A stretch of 64,000 nt of DNA from Bernardetiaceae bacterium (GTDB lineage: Bacteria; Bacteroidota; Bacteroidia; Cytophagales; Bernardetiaceae): NCBI GenBank assembly GCA_020832465.1, contig JAFIER010000004.1, forward strand, positions 1 through 64,000, given 5' to 3'. Each line of letters starts with the position of its first letter. Within the stretch, counting starts at the first letter, position 1. Positions 2,538-60,232 of this stretch are shown in pieces. Below the pieces are notes generated by a model. That model saw only the letters and a program-made list of their open reading frames with translations. It had not been told where the DNA came from and ran no database searches. Position numbers and translations under genes: made by a program.

Positions 2538-3167
2538 TTAAAAACGCTCGCTACCATTGGGCTGATGCACATAGCGAAAAGTATAAGTAGCAGACTGATC
2601 GCGGAAAGCATCAGGCTCAGCAGGTGCACCTTTGTAATAGCTCAAAATCTCGAGCTTAGTAAATTTACCCTCATGTGTGCGCACCAATATAATACGACCC
2701 GCAATCGGAGAAACAATATGACTCTGTGGATTATAGCTGTACCAACCATTGCCACTACCCATCGGAATCGCTAAGTTTGGTGCATTATCCTGCGCAAATT
2801 CCGTACCCGCAGGGACTTCCATTAGCTCCTCGAAAATGCCACTTACTACTGCCGCTGCGGCATCGCCCTCACCACTTGTGCCACCGTTCACACGAATAGC
2901 CAATCCTTTAATGGCAATATCCCAAGTTTCATCTTCACTTACAACCTCACCCTTCGCAAGGTTGAAATACACAAAAGGACGCTCCTCGACGACCTGCCCC
3001 GTTTCTCTATCTATCACATCATTAGGCGCAGCCAAATCTTTTATCAGCACGACCTCCAAGTCTGGCACAGGGTCCTCGCTTTTTTCCTCTTCGCTGCCGC
3101 AAGATACAAAGGTAAAGACAGCCATAAATAAAAACACATACACGAACAGTTTATCAAAAATTCTCAT
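2538..3167 (-). CDS. hmuY: HmuY-family heme-binding lipoprotein
   Basis: Predicted surface or periplasmic heme-binding lipoprotein that passes heme to the adjacent TonB receptor. The signal peptide ends in TFVSC (Cys23), followed by an acidic linker. The mature part shows HmuY-family signatures: YFNLAKGEVV, then TWDIAIKGLAIRVNGG, then PIAGRIILVRTHEGKFTKLEI with YYKGAP. The ATG at 3167 is preferred over the one at 3194 because it places the signal peptide at the N-terminus. It lies 51 bp after the receptor and shares its transcript. The two heme ligands known in Porphyromonas HmuY cannot be assigned with confidence. Confidence 0.88.
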   Translation of the reverse strand: MRIFDKLFVYVFLFMAVFTFVSCGSEEEKSEDPVPDLEVVLIKDLAAPNDVIDRETGQVVEERPFVYFNLAKGEVVSEDETWDIAIKGLAIRVNGGTSGEGDAAAAVVSGIFEELMEVPAGTEFAQDNAPNLAIPMGSGNGWYSYNPQSHIVSPIAGRIILVRTHEGKFTKLEILSYYKGAPAEPDAFRDQSATYTFRYVHQPNGSERF

Positions 3168-3218
3168 CGTAAAATTTAGATTAAGGTAAAACATATAGAA
3201 AATTAAAATTGAAAAAGT

Positions 3219-5315
3219 TTAATTGCCTTCAAACTGCAACCGCAGCGCAGCATACCAAAGCCTACCCGGCATGGTCGGAATAAGCCTCGAGTTGGTTTGA
3301 TTCAAAAAATTATCACAGCCCATTTGTAGGCGATACTTTTGTTTGAAAGTTTTGGCAATCGCAGCGTGCAACGTAACAAATCCTGGTACGTACTCATTAT
3401 CGTTATCTAAAATTTGATTGGCGTTGAGGTCTCCAAATCCATATCGCCCGCGCCATACGGCACGCAGAGAAGATTCTATACCCGTTTTTGATTCGCAATA
3501 AAAAATTTTTAAGTTCCCGCTGTGGCGCGAACGGTTGAAAAGCCCGCCGTACTCATCAGCCCTTACACGTCTTGTGCGTAGCGTTTCGCTATCGCGCTTA
3601 AAGACTTCACCATTTTCTATAGCTGCTATAACATCTCTATCCTTAGCTATAAGGTATTGATAACCCGCTGATATACGCAATCCCTTAAGCGGTGTATAAT
3701 GCGATTCGAGTTCTGCACCTTGTGTAAAAACGCTGTTCAGATTCAGATAGCTAAACACAAACTGACCGTTTTGCTTCTGCGCTATGGGCTGGGTCTCGAT
3801 AAGGTCTCTGACTTCGTTGTGAAAAGCATTTATTGAAAAGCTAAACTTTTGATGAGGCGTAAAGACCGCACCTATGTTGTATGCCCACGAACGCTCAGCA
3901 CGCAGATTACCAATCTGCTCGGCAGGAAACAGCATTTGCGCAATTTGCCCTTGAGACTCTAACCGCTGCAAACCCTCAGCAAGCTCAGCAGCCCCGAGTA
4001 CGGCATAGCCCACTACGGCATTATCAAAGTTTAGATAAAGCTGGCGAAAATCTGGGGCTTTGAAGCCCGCCGCTACCGAAGCCCGCAGATTCAGCCAAGG
4101 GGCTAATTCATAGCGAAGGGCTAACTTGGGGCTTAGTTGCGAATTGTATTCGCTATGCGTATCGAAACGCGCACCGATGATGCTGTTCATACGCGGTGAA
4201 ATTTCCCATTCATGTTGAGCAAAAAGATACTGACTCAAAAAGGGCGTAACATCATTGTAGCGTGTTGCCTCTACGGCTTCGCGCACTACGCCCCCACCAA
4301 AAGTCAGAATATGAGCATCACTATGGTAGTACTCATTCAAGGATTCTATGCGCAGAAAATTTTGATTGAAAAAATTTGCATCATACATACTACCACTCTC
4401 AAACTCCCGCAACTCGTTGTTTGTGGAATATGCACTGTGGTATAATCTCAATTGGGATTTAAAGCTATCCGAAAAGCGATGGCGCAAATCTAATTTATGA
4501 TTGTAGTCCTGCACCCTACCATCGCCCACGATTTTAAGTAGGTCAGCCTCACTACCAATACCAAAAGAAGGATTTTGATTTTCATAAAAAATACGAGACG
4601 AGAAATCGAGCTCCGTGCGTGAGCTAAGCTGATAAGCTACTTTAAACCTCGCCGTGTAGTTGTGAAAGGGCGCTACAGTTTGTCCAAAGCGCTCGGGATT
4701 AAAATCAAAACCGCCCGTTTGATAGCGATTGAGCAGTGCATAGACCGATAATTTTTCGTTGGCATAGCTTCCATCAGCCGTAAAATCACTGGTTTGATTT
4801 GTACCATAACGACCAGAGAGCGTAGTTTTCCAACCTTGCTTAGGTTTTTTGGTAATGATATTGATAACGCCTGCCAAAGCCTCAGAGCCGTATAAGCTCG
4901 AAGAAGGTCCTTTCAAAATCTCGATGCGCTCCACATCGGCAAGGGCAATACGAGAGAGCTCCAGAGTGCCTGCCGTGCGTCCTATAAGCGGCTCGCCATC
5001 GATGAGAATCAATGTATAATCCGGTGAAAGACCTTGAATCTGTACACCACTACCATGGTCTTCCGTAACGGCTAAGCCCGTCTGCTCAGCAAGCAATTCA
5101 TTCAGACGAAGCAGACCCGAAGCCTCTATCTGCTCCCGAGAAACCACCGTTATGGGCACAGGCAAAACCTCGATTTGTTTTTCGTTACGTGTAGCCGTAA
5201 CTACTATGTTGGCCAAAGTCGCGCCCTCTCTGATGCTATCCTTATGCACCAAATCTTGTGCATAAGTGCTTGATAAACAAAATGTTAAAATCAATAAGTA
5301 AAATATAACTCGCAT
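3219..5315 (-). CDS. TonB-dependent outer-membrane receptor, probable heme receptor
   Basis: Signal peptide to about residue 20 (cut near TYAQ), plug domain about 35-145 (IVVTATRNEKQIEVLPVPITV; ILKGPSSSLYGSEALAGVINIITKKP), then a long beta-barrel ending in hydrophobic LRLQFEGN. A GFKAPDFRQLYL string resembles the FRAP region of heme receptors. Context (hmuY downstream, hmuTUV and hmuS divergent) makes heme the likely ligand; a cobalamin or siderophore receptor is the alternative. The start is the ATG at 5315. The ATG at 5339 lies inside the predicted -7 box (5337-5344), so it would be upstream of the transcript start. Confidence 0.9.
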   Translation of the reverse strand: MRVIFYLLILTFCLSSTYAQDLVHKDSIREGATLANIVVTATRNEKQIEVLPVPITVVSREQIEASGLLRLNELLAEQTGLAVTEDHGSGVQIQGLSPDYTLILIDGEPLIGRTAGTLELSRIALADVERIEILKGPSSSLYGSEALAGVINIITKKPKQGWKTTLSGRYGTNQTSDFTADGSYANEKLSVYALLNRYQTGGFDFNPERFGQTVAPFHNYTARFKVAYQLSSRTELDFSSRIFYENQNPSFGIGSEADLLKIVGDGRVQDYNHKLDLRHRFSDSFKSQLRLYHSAYSTNNELREFESGSMYDANFFNQNFLRIESLNEYYHSDAHILTFGGGVVREAVEATRYNDVTPFLSQYLFAQHEWEISPRMNSIIGARFDTHSEYNSQLSPKLALRYELAPWLNLRASVAAGFKAPDFRQLYLNFDNAVVGYAVLGAAELAEGLQRLESQGQIAQMLFPAEQIGNLRAERSWAYNIGAVFTPHQKFSFSINAFHNEVRDLIETQPIAQKQNGQFVFSYLNLNSVFTQGAELESHYTPLKGLRISAGYQYLIAKDRDVIAAIENGEVFKRDSETLRTRRVRADEYGGLFNRSRHSGNLKIFYCESKTGIESSLRAVWRGRYGFGDLNANQILDNDNEYVPGFVTLHAAIAKTFKQKYRLQMGCDNFLNQTNSRLIPTMPGRLWYAALRLQFEGN

Positions 5316-5336: not shown

Positions 5337-5368
5337 CAAACATAAAACTTATTTAGACTTATTACAAA
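5337..5368 (-). promoter_or_regulatory. Promoter of the receptor-hmuY operon
   Basis: On the minus strand TATGTTTG (5337-5344) matches TAnnTTTG exactly. A TTTG (5365-5368) lies 20 bp upstream. The predicted start site is near 5332, giving a leader of about 15-20 nt before the ATG at 5315. Confidence 0.75.
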
Positions 5369-5371
5369 TAA
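5349..5371. promoter_or_regulatory. Candidate heme/iron operator, receptor side
   Basis: Imperfect palindrome TTATTT-N11-AAATAA with GACTTA in the spacer, covering the -33 region of the receptor promoter. The same 23-bp site (19 of 23 identical) covers the hmuT promoter at 5576-5598. Its position fits a repressor such as a Fur- or DtxR-type protein; the protein is not identified. Confidence 0.65.
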
Positions 5372-5422
5372 AAATAAGAATTTTTTTCAAAAAAATTATC
5401 AGGCTCTTATCTAACTTTAAGC

Positions 5423-5512
5423 GCACTACTTAGACATTCGCCAGCCAGAAATAATATTTCGCAAAGCCATGTTATTTCTAAGCCGATATAGAAAAATCTA
5501 TAGTGGAGTAGT
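5423..5512. repeat. Element 1 derivative lacking palindrome C
   Basis: Ends ACTACT and AGTGGAGTAGT are inverted. Hairpin A with damaged arms is at about 5448-5480, followed by AAGCC and a short AGAAAAATCTATAG remnant in place of palindrome C. It sits between the two divergent hmu promoters without touching either operator. Confidence 0.6.
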
Positions 5513-5575
5513 CTGAGCTTTAAGCAAAAGATTCACCAGCAGGGATTTGCAGTTTTTTTGAAAAAAAACTTATTC

Positions 5576-5598
5576 TTATTTTGACTTAATCTAAATAA
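5576..5598. promoter_or_regulatory. Candidate heme/iron operator, hmuT side
   Basis: TTATTT-N11-AAATAA with GACTTA in the spacer; 9 of 11 symmetric pairs match. It contains the TTG of the hmuT promoter, so a bound protein would block RNA polymerase. Confidence 0.65.
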
Positions 5599-5610
5599 TA
5601 ACTACATTTG
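5581..5610 (+). promoter_or_regulatory. Promoter of the hmuTUVS operon
   Basis: TTG at 5581-5583, a 19-bp spacer, then TACATTTG at 5603-5610, an exact Bacteroidota promoter. The leader to the hmuT ATG is about 38 nt. Confidence 0.8.
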
Positions 5611-5652
5611 TGCTTGAAACCTAATTTATAAACTGTCTAAATAACTTATACA

Positions 5653-6561
5653 ATGCGACTGAAATCTTTTTATTTTTATTGTGCGTTAGGCGTTGCCTTG
5701 CTTTTTTCCTGTGGGAATAGCAAAACAGAATCGCAAGCCGAAGCAAGCGAATCACAAATAGAAAATACGCAAGAAACAGGCAAAAAAATTGTTTCCTTGA
5801 GCGGCGCACTTACCGAAATTATTTTTGCTGCTGGTTACGGCGATAAAGTAGTCGGTACGGACGTAACGAGCACCTACCCCGAAGCAGCAGCGGCTTTGCC
5901 AAAAGTAGGGCATAATCGCAATATAGAAGTAGAGGGCGTGCTTTCGCTCACGCCTACTCACCTGTTTACTATCAAAGATGCGCTCAAGCCCGAGGTGGTA
6001 TCGCAGTTCGAAACAGCAGCCTTACAAACAGAGGCTTTCGTGCAAGAATTTACTATAGAGGGCACAAAAAAGCTGATTCAATCTGTTTGTGAAACCCTCG
6101 AAACGCCCCAGACAGCGCAAAAACTCAACAGCAAAATCGATGAAGATTTAGCCAAAGTAGAGCCGCTCGCTCAAAAACCTAAAGTACTTTTTATCTATGC
6201 GCGGGGTGCGGGCTCGCTTATGGTAGCGGGCGAAGGCACACAAATGCAAGAAATGATACAACTCGCTGGTGGCAAAAATGCCGTAACAGGTTTTGAAGAT
6301 TTCAAACCGCTTACTGCCGAGGCATTGGTGCAAGCAAACCCTGATATTATTTTGATGTTCGACTCTGGGTTGCAGAGTTTGGAGGGTGATGCGGGTCTGC
6401 TCGAAGTGCCTGGCATGAGGGATACGCCAGCGGGCAAGCACAAAGCCTTTATCTCGATGGACGGACAATTCTTATCGGGCTTCGGACCTCGTGTAGGCGA
6501 AGCGGTTTATACCTTAAATCAAAAATTCAAAAATTTGAGTGATGCTGGGCAAGCCCAATAA
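5653..6561 (+). CDS. hmuT: Heme ABC transporter substrate-binding lipoprotein
   Basis: Periplasmic binding protein of the PF01497 type that delivers heme to HmuUV. The signal peptide ends LLFSC (Cys20), followed by a Ser/Glu/Gln-rich linker. The mature domain begins KIVSLSGALTEIIFAAGYGDKVVGTDVTSTYP and has VGHNRNIEVEGVLSLTPTHL, typical of HmuT. The usual tether between two lobes fits the ~300-residue length. First gene of the heme import operon; its end overlaps hmuU by 20 nt. Specificity (heme rather than ferri-siderophore) is inferred from hmuY, hmuS and the receptor. Confidence 0.92.
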   Translation: MRLKSFYFYCALGVALLFSCGNSKTESQAEASESQIENTQETGKKIVSLSGALTEIIFAAGYGDKVVGTDVTSTYPEAAAALPKVGHNRNIEVEGVLSLTPTHLFTIKDALKPEVVSQFETAALQTEAFVQEFTIEGTKKLIQSVCETLETPQTAQKLNSKIDEDLAKVEPLAQKPKVLFIYARGAGSLMVAGEGTQMQEMIQLAGGKNAVTGFEDFKPLTAEALVQANPDIILMFDSGLQSLEGDAGLLEVPGMRDTPAGKHKAFISMDGQFLSGFGPRVGEAVYTLNQKFKNLSDAGQAQ

Positions 6562-7585
6562 TATCAATCTACTGCTTTTAAGCTGTCTAATTTTTTCCTT
6601 GCTTGCCGCAACGGGTATAGGTGCGGTTTCGATTGCGCCACTCGAGGTCTTAGCGATTGTAAGCAAAAAATTGGCTTGGCACTGGGGCAATTTTACGGCG
6701 CAACAGGAGGTTGTCTTATGGTCTATCCGTCTGCCTCGTGTTTTGATGAGCATTCTGGTAGGCGCGGCTTTAGCGATTTGTGGGGCAGCGATGCAAGGGC
6801 TTTTTCGCAATGCCCTTGCTGACCCCTCGATTATCGGTATATCGGCTGGTGCTGCATTTTCAGCGGCTTTGGTTATTGTGCTTATCGCCCCTATGCTTTC
6901 TGCCTCTATGCTTTGGGCGGGCTTTTCGCTGCTTTCGGTAGCAACTTTTACGGGGGCTGTGCTCTCGACGGTTTTGATATTTGCCTTAGCCAGAGAAAAA
7001 CGCAAAACTAATGTCGTTACGATGCTTTTGGCAGGCATTTCTATCAATGCTTTAGCTGGCGCAGCCACAGGTTTATTGACTTACTTGGCTGATGATGCCC
7101 AACTTCGCAGCCTTACCTTTTGGACTTTGGGCAGCTTAGGTGGCACGACGTGGAAAGCCGTCATTTTCATGAGTGTAGCTACGGGCTTGAGCTTGCTGAT
7201 TTTATTGCGTTTGCACAAATCTTTCAACGCCTTAGCCTTGGGCGAAGCCGAAGCCATACATCTCGGTGTTTCGGTAGAGTCGCTTAAAAGGTGGGTTATT
7301 TTTGCTACGGCATTGGCAGTCGGTGTATCGGTTGCTTTTTGTGGAATGATAGGATTTGTGGGCTTGGTTGTGCCGCATATTATGCGTCTTTGGGTAGGGG
7401 CAGAGCATCGCTATCTGCTGCCCGCTTCGGCTTTGGGTGGGGGGCTTTTGTTATGCTGGGCAGATACGCTTTCGCGCACTTGGGCTGCACCTGCGGAGAT
7501 TCCAATCGGTGTCATTACCGCCTTAGTGGGCGCGCCCGTGTTTTTGTTTTTGCTGTTCAAACAGCGCAGGGCTATGGCAATGTAG
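6542..7585 (+). CDS. hmuU: Heme ABC transporter permease (FecCD family)
   Basis: FecCD/BtuC-type permease with about ten membrane spans. Family signatures are visible: LWSIRLPRVLMSILVGAAL near residue 60, GAAMQGLFRNALADPSIIGIS after it, and VAFCGMIGFVGLVVPHIMRLWVG in the last third. It forms the inner-membrane channel with HmuV. The ATG at 6542 follows a GTG at 6539 that could also serve. It overlaps the hmuT end by 20 nt, implying translational coupling. A 226-bp gap full of repeats separates it from hmuV. Confidence 0.93.
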   Translation: MLGKPNNINLLLLSCLIFSLLAATGIGAVSIAPLEVLAIVSKKLAWHWGNFTAQQEVVLWSIRLPRVLMSILVGAALAICGAAMQGLFRNALADPSIIGISAGAAFSAALVIVLIAPMLSASMLWAGFSLLSVATFTGAVLSTVLIFALAREKRKTNVVTMLLAGISINALAGAATGLLTYLADDAQLRSLTFWTLGSLGGTTWKAVIFMSVATGLSLLILLRLHKSFNALALGEAEAIHLGVSVESLKRWVIFATALAVGVSVAFCGMIGFVGLVVPHIMRLWVGAEHRYLLPASALGGGLLLCWADTLSRTWAAPAEIPIGVITALVGAPVFLFLLFKQRRAMAM

Positions 7586-7811: not shown

Positions 7812-8594
7812 ATGTTAGAAGTAGAACAGATTTCATATTGCATTAAAGGCAAATCTATCCTCTCGGACATCAGTTTCGAGCTGGAGCGGGGGGACTTTTT
7901 GGCTATTATCGGTACGAATGGGGCGGGCAAATCCACGCTTATCAAAACCTTGAGCCAAGAACTTCGACCTTCGCACGGCGAAGTGCGTTGGAAAAATCGC
8001 AGTTTGAGCAGTTGGAAACCTCAAGATATTGCGTTAGAACGGGCTGTTATGACGCAGCATGTGGGTTTGAGTCAAGATTTTAAAGTCGAAGAGGTTGTTT
8101 TGATGGGACGCTATCCACATTTCAAACATCAGCCTACTTCTGAGGACAAAGATTGCGTCTGGCGGGCGATGCAAAAAACGCAAGTCGAGCATTTGGCGCA
8201 GCGCAATTATTACAGTCTCTCGGGCGGCGAGCGGCAGCGTGTGCAGTTTGCCCGTGCGCTTACGCAAATGGATAGCCCGCAAAGGGGGGCAAAAATGCTT
8301 ATGCTCGATGAGCCTTTGAATAATCTGGACCTCAAGCATCAGCATTACGCTTTGCAACTTGCACAAGATTTTGTCAAAGAAGGCAATATTTTGTTACTTG
8401 TTATTCACGACATCAACCTCGCTGCTATGTATGCCGATAAAATTTTACTACTCAAAAACGGGCGAAAATTAGCCTTTGGCGATACTGCCGAAGTGCTCAG
8501 CGAGCAAAATTTACAGCGCGCCTATGAGTTTAATCTAAAAGTTACGGCACACCCTTTTGTGGGCTGTCCAGCGGTGCATTTTTATCCAACTTGA
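7812..8594 (+). CDS. hmuV: Heme ABC transporter ATP-binding protein
   Basis: Cytoplasmic ATPase energising HmuTU. Walker A GTNGAGKST is at residues 34-42, the ABC signature LSGGERQR near 138, Walker B MLMLDEPLNNLDLKH near 165 and the switch histidine in VIHDINLAAMYADK. Length 260 is standard for HmuV. It is the third gene of the operon but is separated from hmuU by repeat hairpins, so relative expression may be lowered. It ends 121 bp before the hmuS ATG. Confidence 0.93.
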   Translation: MLEVEQISYCIKGKSILSDISFELERGDFLAIIGTNGAGKSTLIKTLSQELRPSHGEVRWKNRSLSSWKPQDIALERAVMTQHVGLSQDFKVEEVVLMGRYPHFKHQPTSEDKDCVWRAMQKTQVEHLAQRNYYSLSGGERQRVQFARALTQMDSPQRGAKMLMLDEPLNNLDLKHQHYALQLAQDFVKEGNILLLVIHDINLAAMYADKILLLKNGRKLAFGDTAEVLSEQNLQRAYEFNLKVTAHPFVGCPAVHFYPT

Positions 8595-8715: not shown

Positions 8716-9765
8716 ATGGAAACAAACATTTTAACCTCGAGATGGGCGGCATTGAAAGCCGAGAATCCACAAATCCGTATTCGTAATGCGGCACAAGAAT
8801 TAGGCGTAAGCGAAGTCGAGCTTTTGGCTGGTGAATGCGGCAACACCGTATGGCGATTGCGCCCCGAGTTTCAAGCTATTTTAGGCGAGGTCGAGACTTT
8901 GGGGAAAGTCATGGCACTCACTCGCAATGAAGAAATCGTGCACGAGCGCAAAGGTACTTATCTCAATCCGTCGTTGAACAACAACCACGTGGGTCTGTTT
9001 GTAGGCGAGGATATTGATTTGCGTATTTTCTTTTCTTCTTGGGCTTCGGCTTTTGCCGTCAAAGAAGGCAGCGATGAGAAACCCCGCTATAGCATTCAAT
9101 TTTTTGCCGAAGACGGAGAGGCGATTCATAAAATTTACCTCACGCCGCAAAGCGATTTTGATGCTTTCGAGACTTTGGTAGAAAAGTACAAATCCGATGA
9201 CCAAACGCCCGAGCAGGCTGTAACGCCACGCCCTGCGCCGGAAGCCGAAACGCCCGATTCGGATATCGATGTAGAAAAATTTCAAGAGGCTTGGCGCAAT
9301 TTGAAAGATACACATGACTTCTTCGGACTTTTGCGTAAGCACAAGCTCGCCCGTGTGCAAGCCCTGCGCCTTGCGCCTGAGGGAGGTTTTGCCGTAAGGC
9401 TCAAAAATGATACGTTGCGCGCTACGCTCAACGCCGCTGCCGAGCGTCAGATTCCGATTATGGCATTTGTAGGCAATCGAGGTATGATTCAGATTCATAC
9501 AGGCGAGGTTGAGCATATTGTAGATTATAATGAATGGCTCAACGTCTTAGACCCCGATTTTAATTTGCACGTCAAAGAACCTGCTATTGCACAAACTTGG
9601 CTCGTACGTAAGCCCACAGAAGACGGCATGGTTACGGCACTCGAGTTTTTTAATGAAAAAGAGGAGCAAATTCTACAACTTTTTGGTAAGCGCAAGCCCG
9701 GCATTCCCGAGCTTGAGAGCTGGCGAGAACTCATAGCAGAAATAGAAGCGCAGCATCAGCTTTAA
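8716..9765 (+). CDS. hmuS: Hemin-degrading factor / heme chaperone, HemS family
   Basis: Cytoplasmic protein that receives imported heme; family members degrade or carry it. Two HemS-type repeats are visible: residues about 20-165 (ALTRNEEIVHERKGTYLNP, FFSSWASAFAVKE) and about 190-345 (DTHDFFGLLRKHKLARVQALRL, ALEFFNEKEEQILQLFGKRKPG). The ATG at 8716 gives 349 residues, the usual length; the upstream part of the frame from 8557 overlaps hmuV and codes through a repeat, so it is not real protein. Last gene of the heme import cluster, flanked on both sides by the inverted repeats. Confidence 0.92.
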   Translation: METNILTSRWAALKAENPQIRIRNAAQELGVSEVELLAGECGNTVWRLRPEFQAILGEVETLGKVMALTRNEEIVHERKGTYLNPSLNNNHVGLFVGEDIDLRIFFSSWASAFAVKEGSDEKPRYSIQFFAEDGEAIHKIYLTPQSDFDAFETLVEKYKSDDQTPEQAVTPRPAPEAETPDSDIDVEKFQEAWRNLKDTHDFFGLLRKHKLARVQALRLAPEGGFAVRLKNDTLRATLNAAAERQIPIMAFVGNRGMIQIHTGEVEHIVDYNEWLNVLDPDFNLHVKEPAIAQTWLVRKPTEDGMVTALEFFNEKEEQILQLFGKRKPGIPELESWRELIAEIEAQHQL

Positions 9766-59681: not shown

Positions 59682-60232
59682 ATGCGCTTTATTTAGACTA
59701 ACTTTACAAAAAAAAGTCTTGTAAGTCAGTATTTTATTAAATTTTTTGTACATTTATAGCTTTTATCATACGGCATTATTACAGAATACTTGCGATCTGT
59801 ATAGCCTATGATTTTTTAACCTTTATGTACAGAAAATAGGTAAGTTGCTTAATCCTTCTTTAAGGGCTTTGAATGCTGATTATCAAAAAATTGCTATCAT
59901 ACAAAAAAATATAATTGAAAATTCAGGCGATAAATCGGCTTGTAAGATAGTTTTCTTTGTATAAGCAAATGGGCTTATTTTGCAACTATTACGCCTACAA
60001 AACGTACTTGCATAGGAGACATGCTAAGCCACAGGTAGGCAAACAATTTATAAAATTTTTCATTTCTTTGCTATAACAAACTATACTACTATACATATTG
60101 CAAAGAGATAGTCATAATGAGCAAAAAGATGTTGTTTTACCAAATCTTGTTACAGTATTACAACTACAATTTTTGCAAGCAAAGGAGTAAGCCTTGTACT
60201 TATCTCGAGATACAAAAAAATTAAACAAAAAA
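59682..60232. other. Intergenic region without a gene
   Basis: 551 bp, AT-rich, free of the repeat families, which is unusual here. It contains in-frame codons upstream of the kinase from a TTG at 60194, but no convincing ORF, tRNA or terminator. A promoter for the kinase is probably inside but no exact TAnnTTTG was found. Confidence 0.4.

Follow-up and report, generated by a model that had tools for sequence, protein, structure and literature searches.

The two sites that lie between the divergent heme-uptake genes of this Bernardetiaceae genome are almost certainly Fur binding sites. Judging from sequence, we regard it as very probable (roughly 0.93) that iron-loaded Fur would repress both hmu operons by covering the -33 region of their promoters. 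That a motif of this type is a Fur box is already known from another Bacteroidota bacterium; less expected is the finding that each site also appears to form half of its own promoter.

Two Predicted Operators at the Divergent hmu Promoters

The hmuR-hmuT intergenic region is 313 bp long and contains the only two exact matches to TTATTT-N11-AAATAA in the window, that is, the whole 64-kb stretch of DNA analysed (table 1). The letters of operator 1 are TTATTTAGACTTATTACAAATAA, or TTATTTGTAATAAGTCTAAATAA when read in the direction of the hmuRY promoter, and those of operator 2, which run in the direction of the hmuTUVS promoter, are TTATTTTGACTTAATCTAAATAA; GACTTA is present inside both. The initial annotation had described a matched pair of 23-bp sites, and the pair stands, with 19/23 identical bases in the orientation given there and 18/23 once each site is oriented along its own promoter. 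Its observation that each copy overlaps the -33 side of a good Bacteroidota promoter is likewise confirmed for hmuRY and hmuTUVS, and in a common register, exactly 4 nt separating each 23-mer from a perfect TANNTTTG at both promoters. If TANNTTTG is numbered -12 to -5, following PMC9723704, each operator spans about -39 to -17. Translation of hmuR probably begins with the ATG at 5315; the TTG listed as its start (5339) falls within the -7 element.

A 46-nt inverted repeat, 78% complementary, contains both operators together with the A-tract TTTTTTTGAAAAAAA (15/15), and possibly represents UP-like elements or an old inverted promoter duplication. Additionally, a weaker third candidate site follows the predicted hmuT transcription start at a distance of some 7 nt. 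Far from this locus, positions 59689-59711 (TTATTTAGACTAACTTTACAAAA) show 3 mismatches to TTATTTAGANNNNNTCTAAATAA; they lie just beyond the end of an ORF with no evident iron gene adjoining, and the match is probably due to chance.

Table 1. Features of the hmu locus, with the Fur orthologue encoded elsewhere in the genome. Positions are those of the window unless otherwise indicated.
Feature	Position	Strand	Remarks
Operator 1 (putative Fur box), hmuRY promoter	5349-5371	-	Inner 19 bp 5351-5369; 16/19 vs published box
Operator 2 (putative Fur box), hmuTUVS promoter	5576-5598	+	Inner 19 bp 5578-5596; 16/19 vs published box
Possible third, weaker Fur box (tentative)	5622-5644	+	TAATTTATAAACTGTCTAAATAA; 4 mismatches to published 19-mer
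-33 element TTTG, hmuRY promoter	5368-5365	-	From sequence; within operator 1
-7 element TATGTTTG, hmuRY promoter	5344-5337	-	Fits TANNTTTG; 20-bp spacer from -33
-33 element TTTG, hmuTUVS promoter	5580-5583	+	From sequence; within operator 2
-7 element TACATTTG, hmuTUVS promoter	5603-5610	+	Fits TANNTTTG; 19-bp spacer from -33
hmuY	2538-3194	-	Pfam PF14064 HmuY
hmuR, TonB-dependent receptor	3219-5315	-	Pfam PF00593/PF07715
hmuT, periplasmic binding protein	5653-6561	+	PF01497; NCBIfam IsdE-like match, below cut-off
hmuU, FecCD-type permease	6539-7585	+	PF01032
hmuV, heme ABC transporter ATPase	7812-8594	+	NF010068, above cut-off
hmuS, HemS/ChuX-type protein	8716-9765	+	PF05171; likely ATG start at 8716
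Inverted-repeat left arm (operator 1 + A-tract)	5349-5394	+	Partner 5553-5598
Inverted-repeat right arm (A-tract + operator 2)	5553-5598	+	Partner 5349-5394
Fur orthologue	G000:C83:8639, locus L016		158 aa

Correspondence with a Published Fur Box

The inner 19 bp of each operator agree at 16/19 positions with the Fur box of Riemerella anatipestifer, ATTTAGAATTATTCTAAAT, a published consensus derived independently of the present sequence. When the intergenic region was shuffled with its dinucleotides preserved, one site of this quality appeared in 29/5000 shuffles and two separate ones in 0/5000; similarly, the joint score of both operators against the consensus was reached in 0/3000 shuffles of the sites themselves. 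Furthermore, a sequence model trained only on the hmu boxes of other species, used to rank sites in the organism's own 4.6-Mb genome, places operator 2 first and operator 1 among the top few. A chance match between A/T-rich sequences was also considered, and was rejected on the basis of the shuffles, of reversed-pattern controls and of relatives with a G+C content of ~50%.

The remark that the site does not look like the classical Fur box is literally right. Scored directly, each operator matches the E. coli Fur box GATAATGATAATCATTATC at 10/19 positions and TGATAATNATTATCA at 9-10/15, in neither case better than shuffled sequence, and identity with the classical box was rejected accordingly. 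The accompanying suggestion of a motif possibly new to the phylum is not borne out, the box having already been tested by EMSA in R. anatipestifer (PMC5609570). It was in that work that ATTTAGAATTATTCTAAAT was derived, that Fur was found to shift the hmuR promoter among others, and that hmuY and hmuR were seen to be induced when iron was restricted and likewise when fur was lost (PMC5609570). In the same species, the hemin receptor gene rhuB has a Fur box supported by EMSA (PMC10986502), and mutation of the Fur box in the bidirectional promoter of rhuH and rhuR-rhuA leads to derepression (PMC11967795). Binding of Fur to its box is metal dependent in R. anatipestifer, with a divalent metal. In F. 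psychrophilum, iron represses the related hfp operon, and heme does so to a lesser extent.

Conservation and Distribution of the Box

A box is found upstream of hmuT in 23 of 25 loci from other Bacteroidota, and at 20 of the 25 it has at most 3 mismatches, against 0.11 expected. Two genomes of the same order with G+C ~50% (G015 and G034) share the divergent hmuRY/hmuTUVS arrangement with two boxes, the distance from each box to its -7 element being 4 nt here too; these loci support the earlier proposal that a single repressor, here an iron-responsive one, governs the uptake steps at the outer and the inner membrane. The G+C ~50% genomes that have the motif do so without A-tracts of the type seen in the window. 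In G035 the last gene of the hmu operon is fur itself. No box was found at the hmu genes, divergent in sequence, of G010 and G013, two members of the same family as the present organism.

The motif was further counted across genomes, allowing up to 2 mismatches, with counts of the reversed pattern serving as controls. Where the Fur orthologue is encoded (12 genomes), there are 90 sites versus 7 controls, and two Chitinophaga genomes without it yield 2 versus 1; the two hmu loci, out of 25, that lack a box are those of the latter genomes. Both Chitinophaga genomes (G043 and G044; L021, L022) have an hmuT homologue, with neither a close Fur orthologue nor an excess of Fur boxes, and iron control there must differ. 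In F. beibuense, P. hiemivivus and O. jilunii, the motif precedes TonB receptors, hemA (three times), feoA and feoB, as well as a multiheme cytochrome c, sdhC, DUF6686 and regulators. The initial annotation had proposed looking for the motif before other iron genes, and in these relatives it is enriched there.

Searching the organism's own genome by pattern and by the sequence model, and reading the surroundings of a few matches, we found the motif also before a FecA-like receptor, sufB and sdhC, the last of these links being shared with Olivibacter. At 3 mismatches or fewer, the motif count in this genome is 19 versus 10 for the control. Since this excess is only twofold, the regulon beyond hmu is an uncertain list of candidates. 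Several matches of the sequence model adjoin no iron gene and were left out of the evidence. A literature search for comparative genomics of the Bacteroidota Fur regulon returned nothing directly relevant.

Among these candidates, the putative box upstream of sufB lies at G000:C189:16565-16587 (L128), and another precedes an Fe-S assembly protein gene adjoining sufE (G000:C100:31594-31612; L049). The candidate box of sdhC (G000:C284:5202-5224; L126) is located upstream of the promoter core, and activation instead of repression is conceivable in this case. The small family DUF6686 is repeatedly encoded directly behind a Fur box (L064:1628-1951, L071:1074-1388 and, as a weak case, L102:1558-1908), and once inside an hmu cluster, between an hmuY-like gene and hmuT (L131). 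This recurrence suggests an iron-related role for the family.

The Identity of the Regulator

Across genomes, the occurrence of the motif tracks Fur and shows no such link to the DtxR family. Repressors of the DtxR/MntR family bind TTTAG...CTAAA-like palindromes, the genome encodes one of them (L018, 221 aa), and the operators weakly resemble the DtxR and MntR consensuses, 43 and 62 of 3000 shuffles, respectively, reaching the same score. Nevertheless, it is most improbable that L018 uses the sites: G015, G034 and G045 lack a DtxR-family match above cut-off yet contain the motif and hmu genes preceded by a box, Chitinophaga has DtxR and has lost the motif, the published EMSAs on the motif used Fur, and L018 is itself most MntR-like. 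It was this co-occurrence pattern that led us to reject a DtxR/MntR operator. The odds are equally slim for a second Fur-family protein, the Zur-like L017, or some other heme- or zinc-sensing regulator. L017 does belong to the Fur family, and P. gingivalis Fur, with its non-canonical behaviour, illustrates that Bacteroidota homologues can be atypical. However, the recognition helix of L017 has Arg instead of Asn (TIYRTL) and its best score, a weak one, is to Zur; moreover, the motif adjoins iron and heme genes and has been lost in Chitinophaga, which retains only divergent Fur-family members. The gene for L017 (G000:C246:15224-15634) is divergent to that of a TonB-dependent receptor, and the protein probably acts as a zinc regulator through a separate box.

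The 46-nt inverted repeat with its A-tracts, which spans both operators, raises another scenario, in which an A/T-rich promoter was duplicated in inverted orientation and the sites are alike for that reason alone, with no part in regulation. Such an artefact is insufficient because the motif recurs at unrelated iron genes; it is also kept at differently arranged hmu loci and in genomes of G+C ~50% that lack such A-tracts. We give this scenario hardly any credence.

Returning to Fur, we infer that the organism's own protein binds the operators, with Fe2+ as the metal and repression as the outcome. Of the "iron- or heme-sensing" repressor initially predicted, the iron part holds, Fur orthology and the published work both pointing to Fe2+, while positive evidence for heme sensing was not found. 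In iron-replete cells, Fur dimers loaded with Fe2+ would occupy both boxes, mask the -33 elements and spacers there (about -39 to -17) and so deny RNA polymerase access to the two divergent promoters. Outer-membrane uptake (hmuR, hmuY) would then be shut off together with inner-membrane uptake and heme handling (hmuTUVS), and iron shortage would release both promoters.

Operator, Promoter and Recognition Helix

In both window operators the promoter-distal half carries the TTTG of the -33 element, and we propose that it does so because this half-box also serves as the -33 element. Among the fetched loci, a distal TTTG is present in 12/21 boxes that have a -7 element at the spacing seen here versus 12/200 others, in a count that enters every site in both orientations and includes related, hence non-independent, species. 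A separate scan of 395 genomes of the class for a box plus TANNTTTG gave 37 matches versus 2 controls; in this class-wide set, a -7 element 5-7 nt past the 19-mer, equivalent to a -33/-7 spacer of 19-21 bp, accompanies 12/16 boxes with distal TTTG versus 2/21 without (Fisher P = 8e-5, operator 2 being part of the test set). Each site thus seems to form half of the promoter that it shuts off. In such an overlay the distal half-site would yield its symmetric base, TTATTTA changing to TTATTTG or TTATTTTG, and thereby supply the TTTG; operator and promoter would be locked into one register, and operator strength may be traded for promoter strength. In open-access text we found neither a mention of this overlay nor a directly relevant study of Fur boxes that overlap TAnnTTTG promoters.

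A further clue comes from the recognition helix, in which Asn follows ATVY/ATLY in 16/16 Fur orthologues examined (ATVYN in the organism's own Fur). The Fur proteins of C. jejuni and Magnetospirillum have Arg at this position; the corresponding residue of B. subtilis PerR is Asn61. We put forward that the box may be unlike the classical one because this Fur has the PerR-type Asn, an explanation drawn from sequence; a limited search of the open-access literature on these Fur boxes found no mention of this detail. The joint reading, in which recurrent Bacteroidota Fur operators are overlaid on the promoter and the PerR-type Asn has shifted the box of the phylum away from the classical form, appears to us somewhat better than evenly probable.

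The supposed unknown regulator is hereby replaced by a Fur box that can be used for predicting iron regulons in Bacteroidota, where scans with E. coli-type boxes are unsuccessful. Two features, the operator laid over the -33 element and Asn in place of Arg in the recognition helix, offer concrete, testable reasons for the unusual iron boxes of the phylum, and the motif flags DUF6686 as a probable iron-linked family.

Comparison with Known Systems

What the window operators have in common with the E. coli Fur box is the regulator family and the general inverted-repeat layout. The Bacillus PerR box, TTATAATNATTATAA, comes closer to the box of the phylum: 6/7 letters of its half-site TTATAAT, including the first three, agree with the Bacteroidota half-site TTAGAAT, and PerR shares with this Fur the Asn in the recognition helix. 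In contrast to PerR, this Fur retains Glu in place of the Asp that is reportedly peroxide sensing, and the genes that it is predicted to target concern iron and heme; the fit of the window operators themselves to the PerR box is poor. The nearest counterpart is R. anatipestifer, with the same palindrome, the same targets hmuR and hmuY, a divergent-promoter setting and a Fur orthologue. Unlike R. anatipestifer, the present locus has GACTT in the centre of the box and TTTG in its promoter-distal half, and the divergent partner is the hmuTUVS transporter. Finally, whereas R. anatipestifer has one box per divergent pair, here there is one box per promoter.
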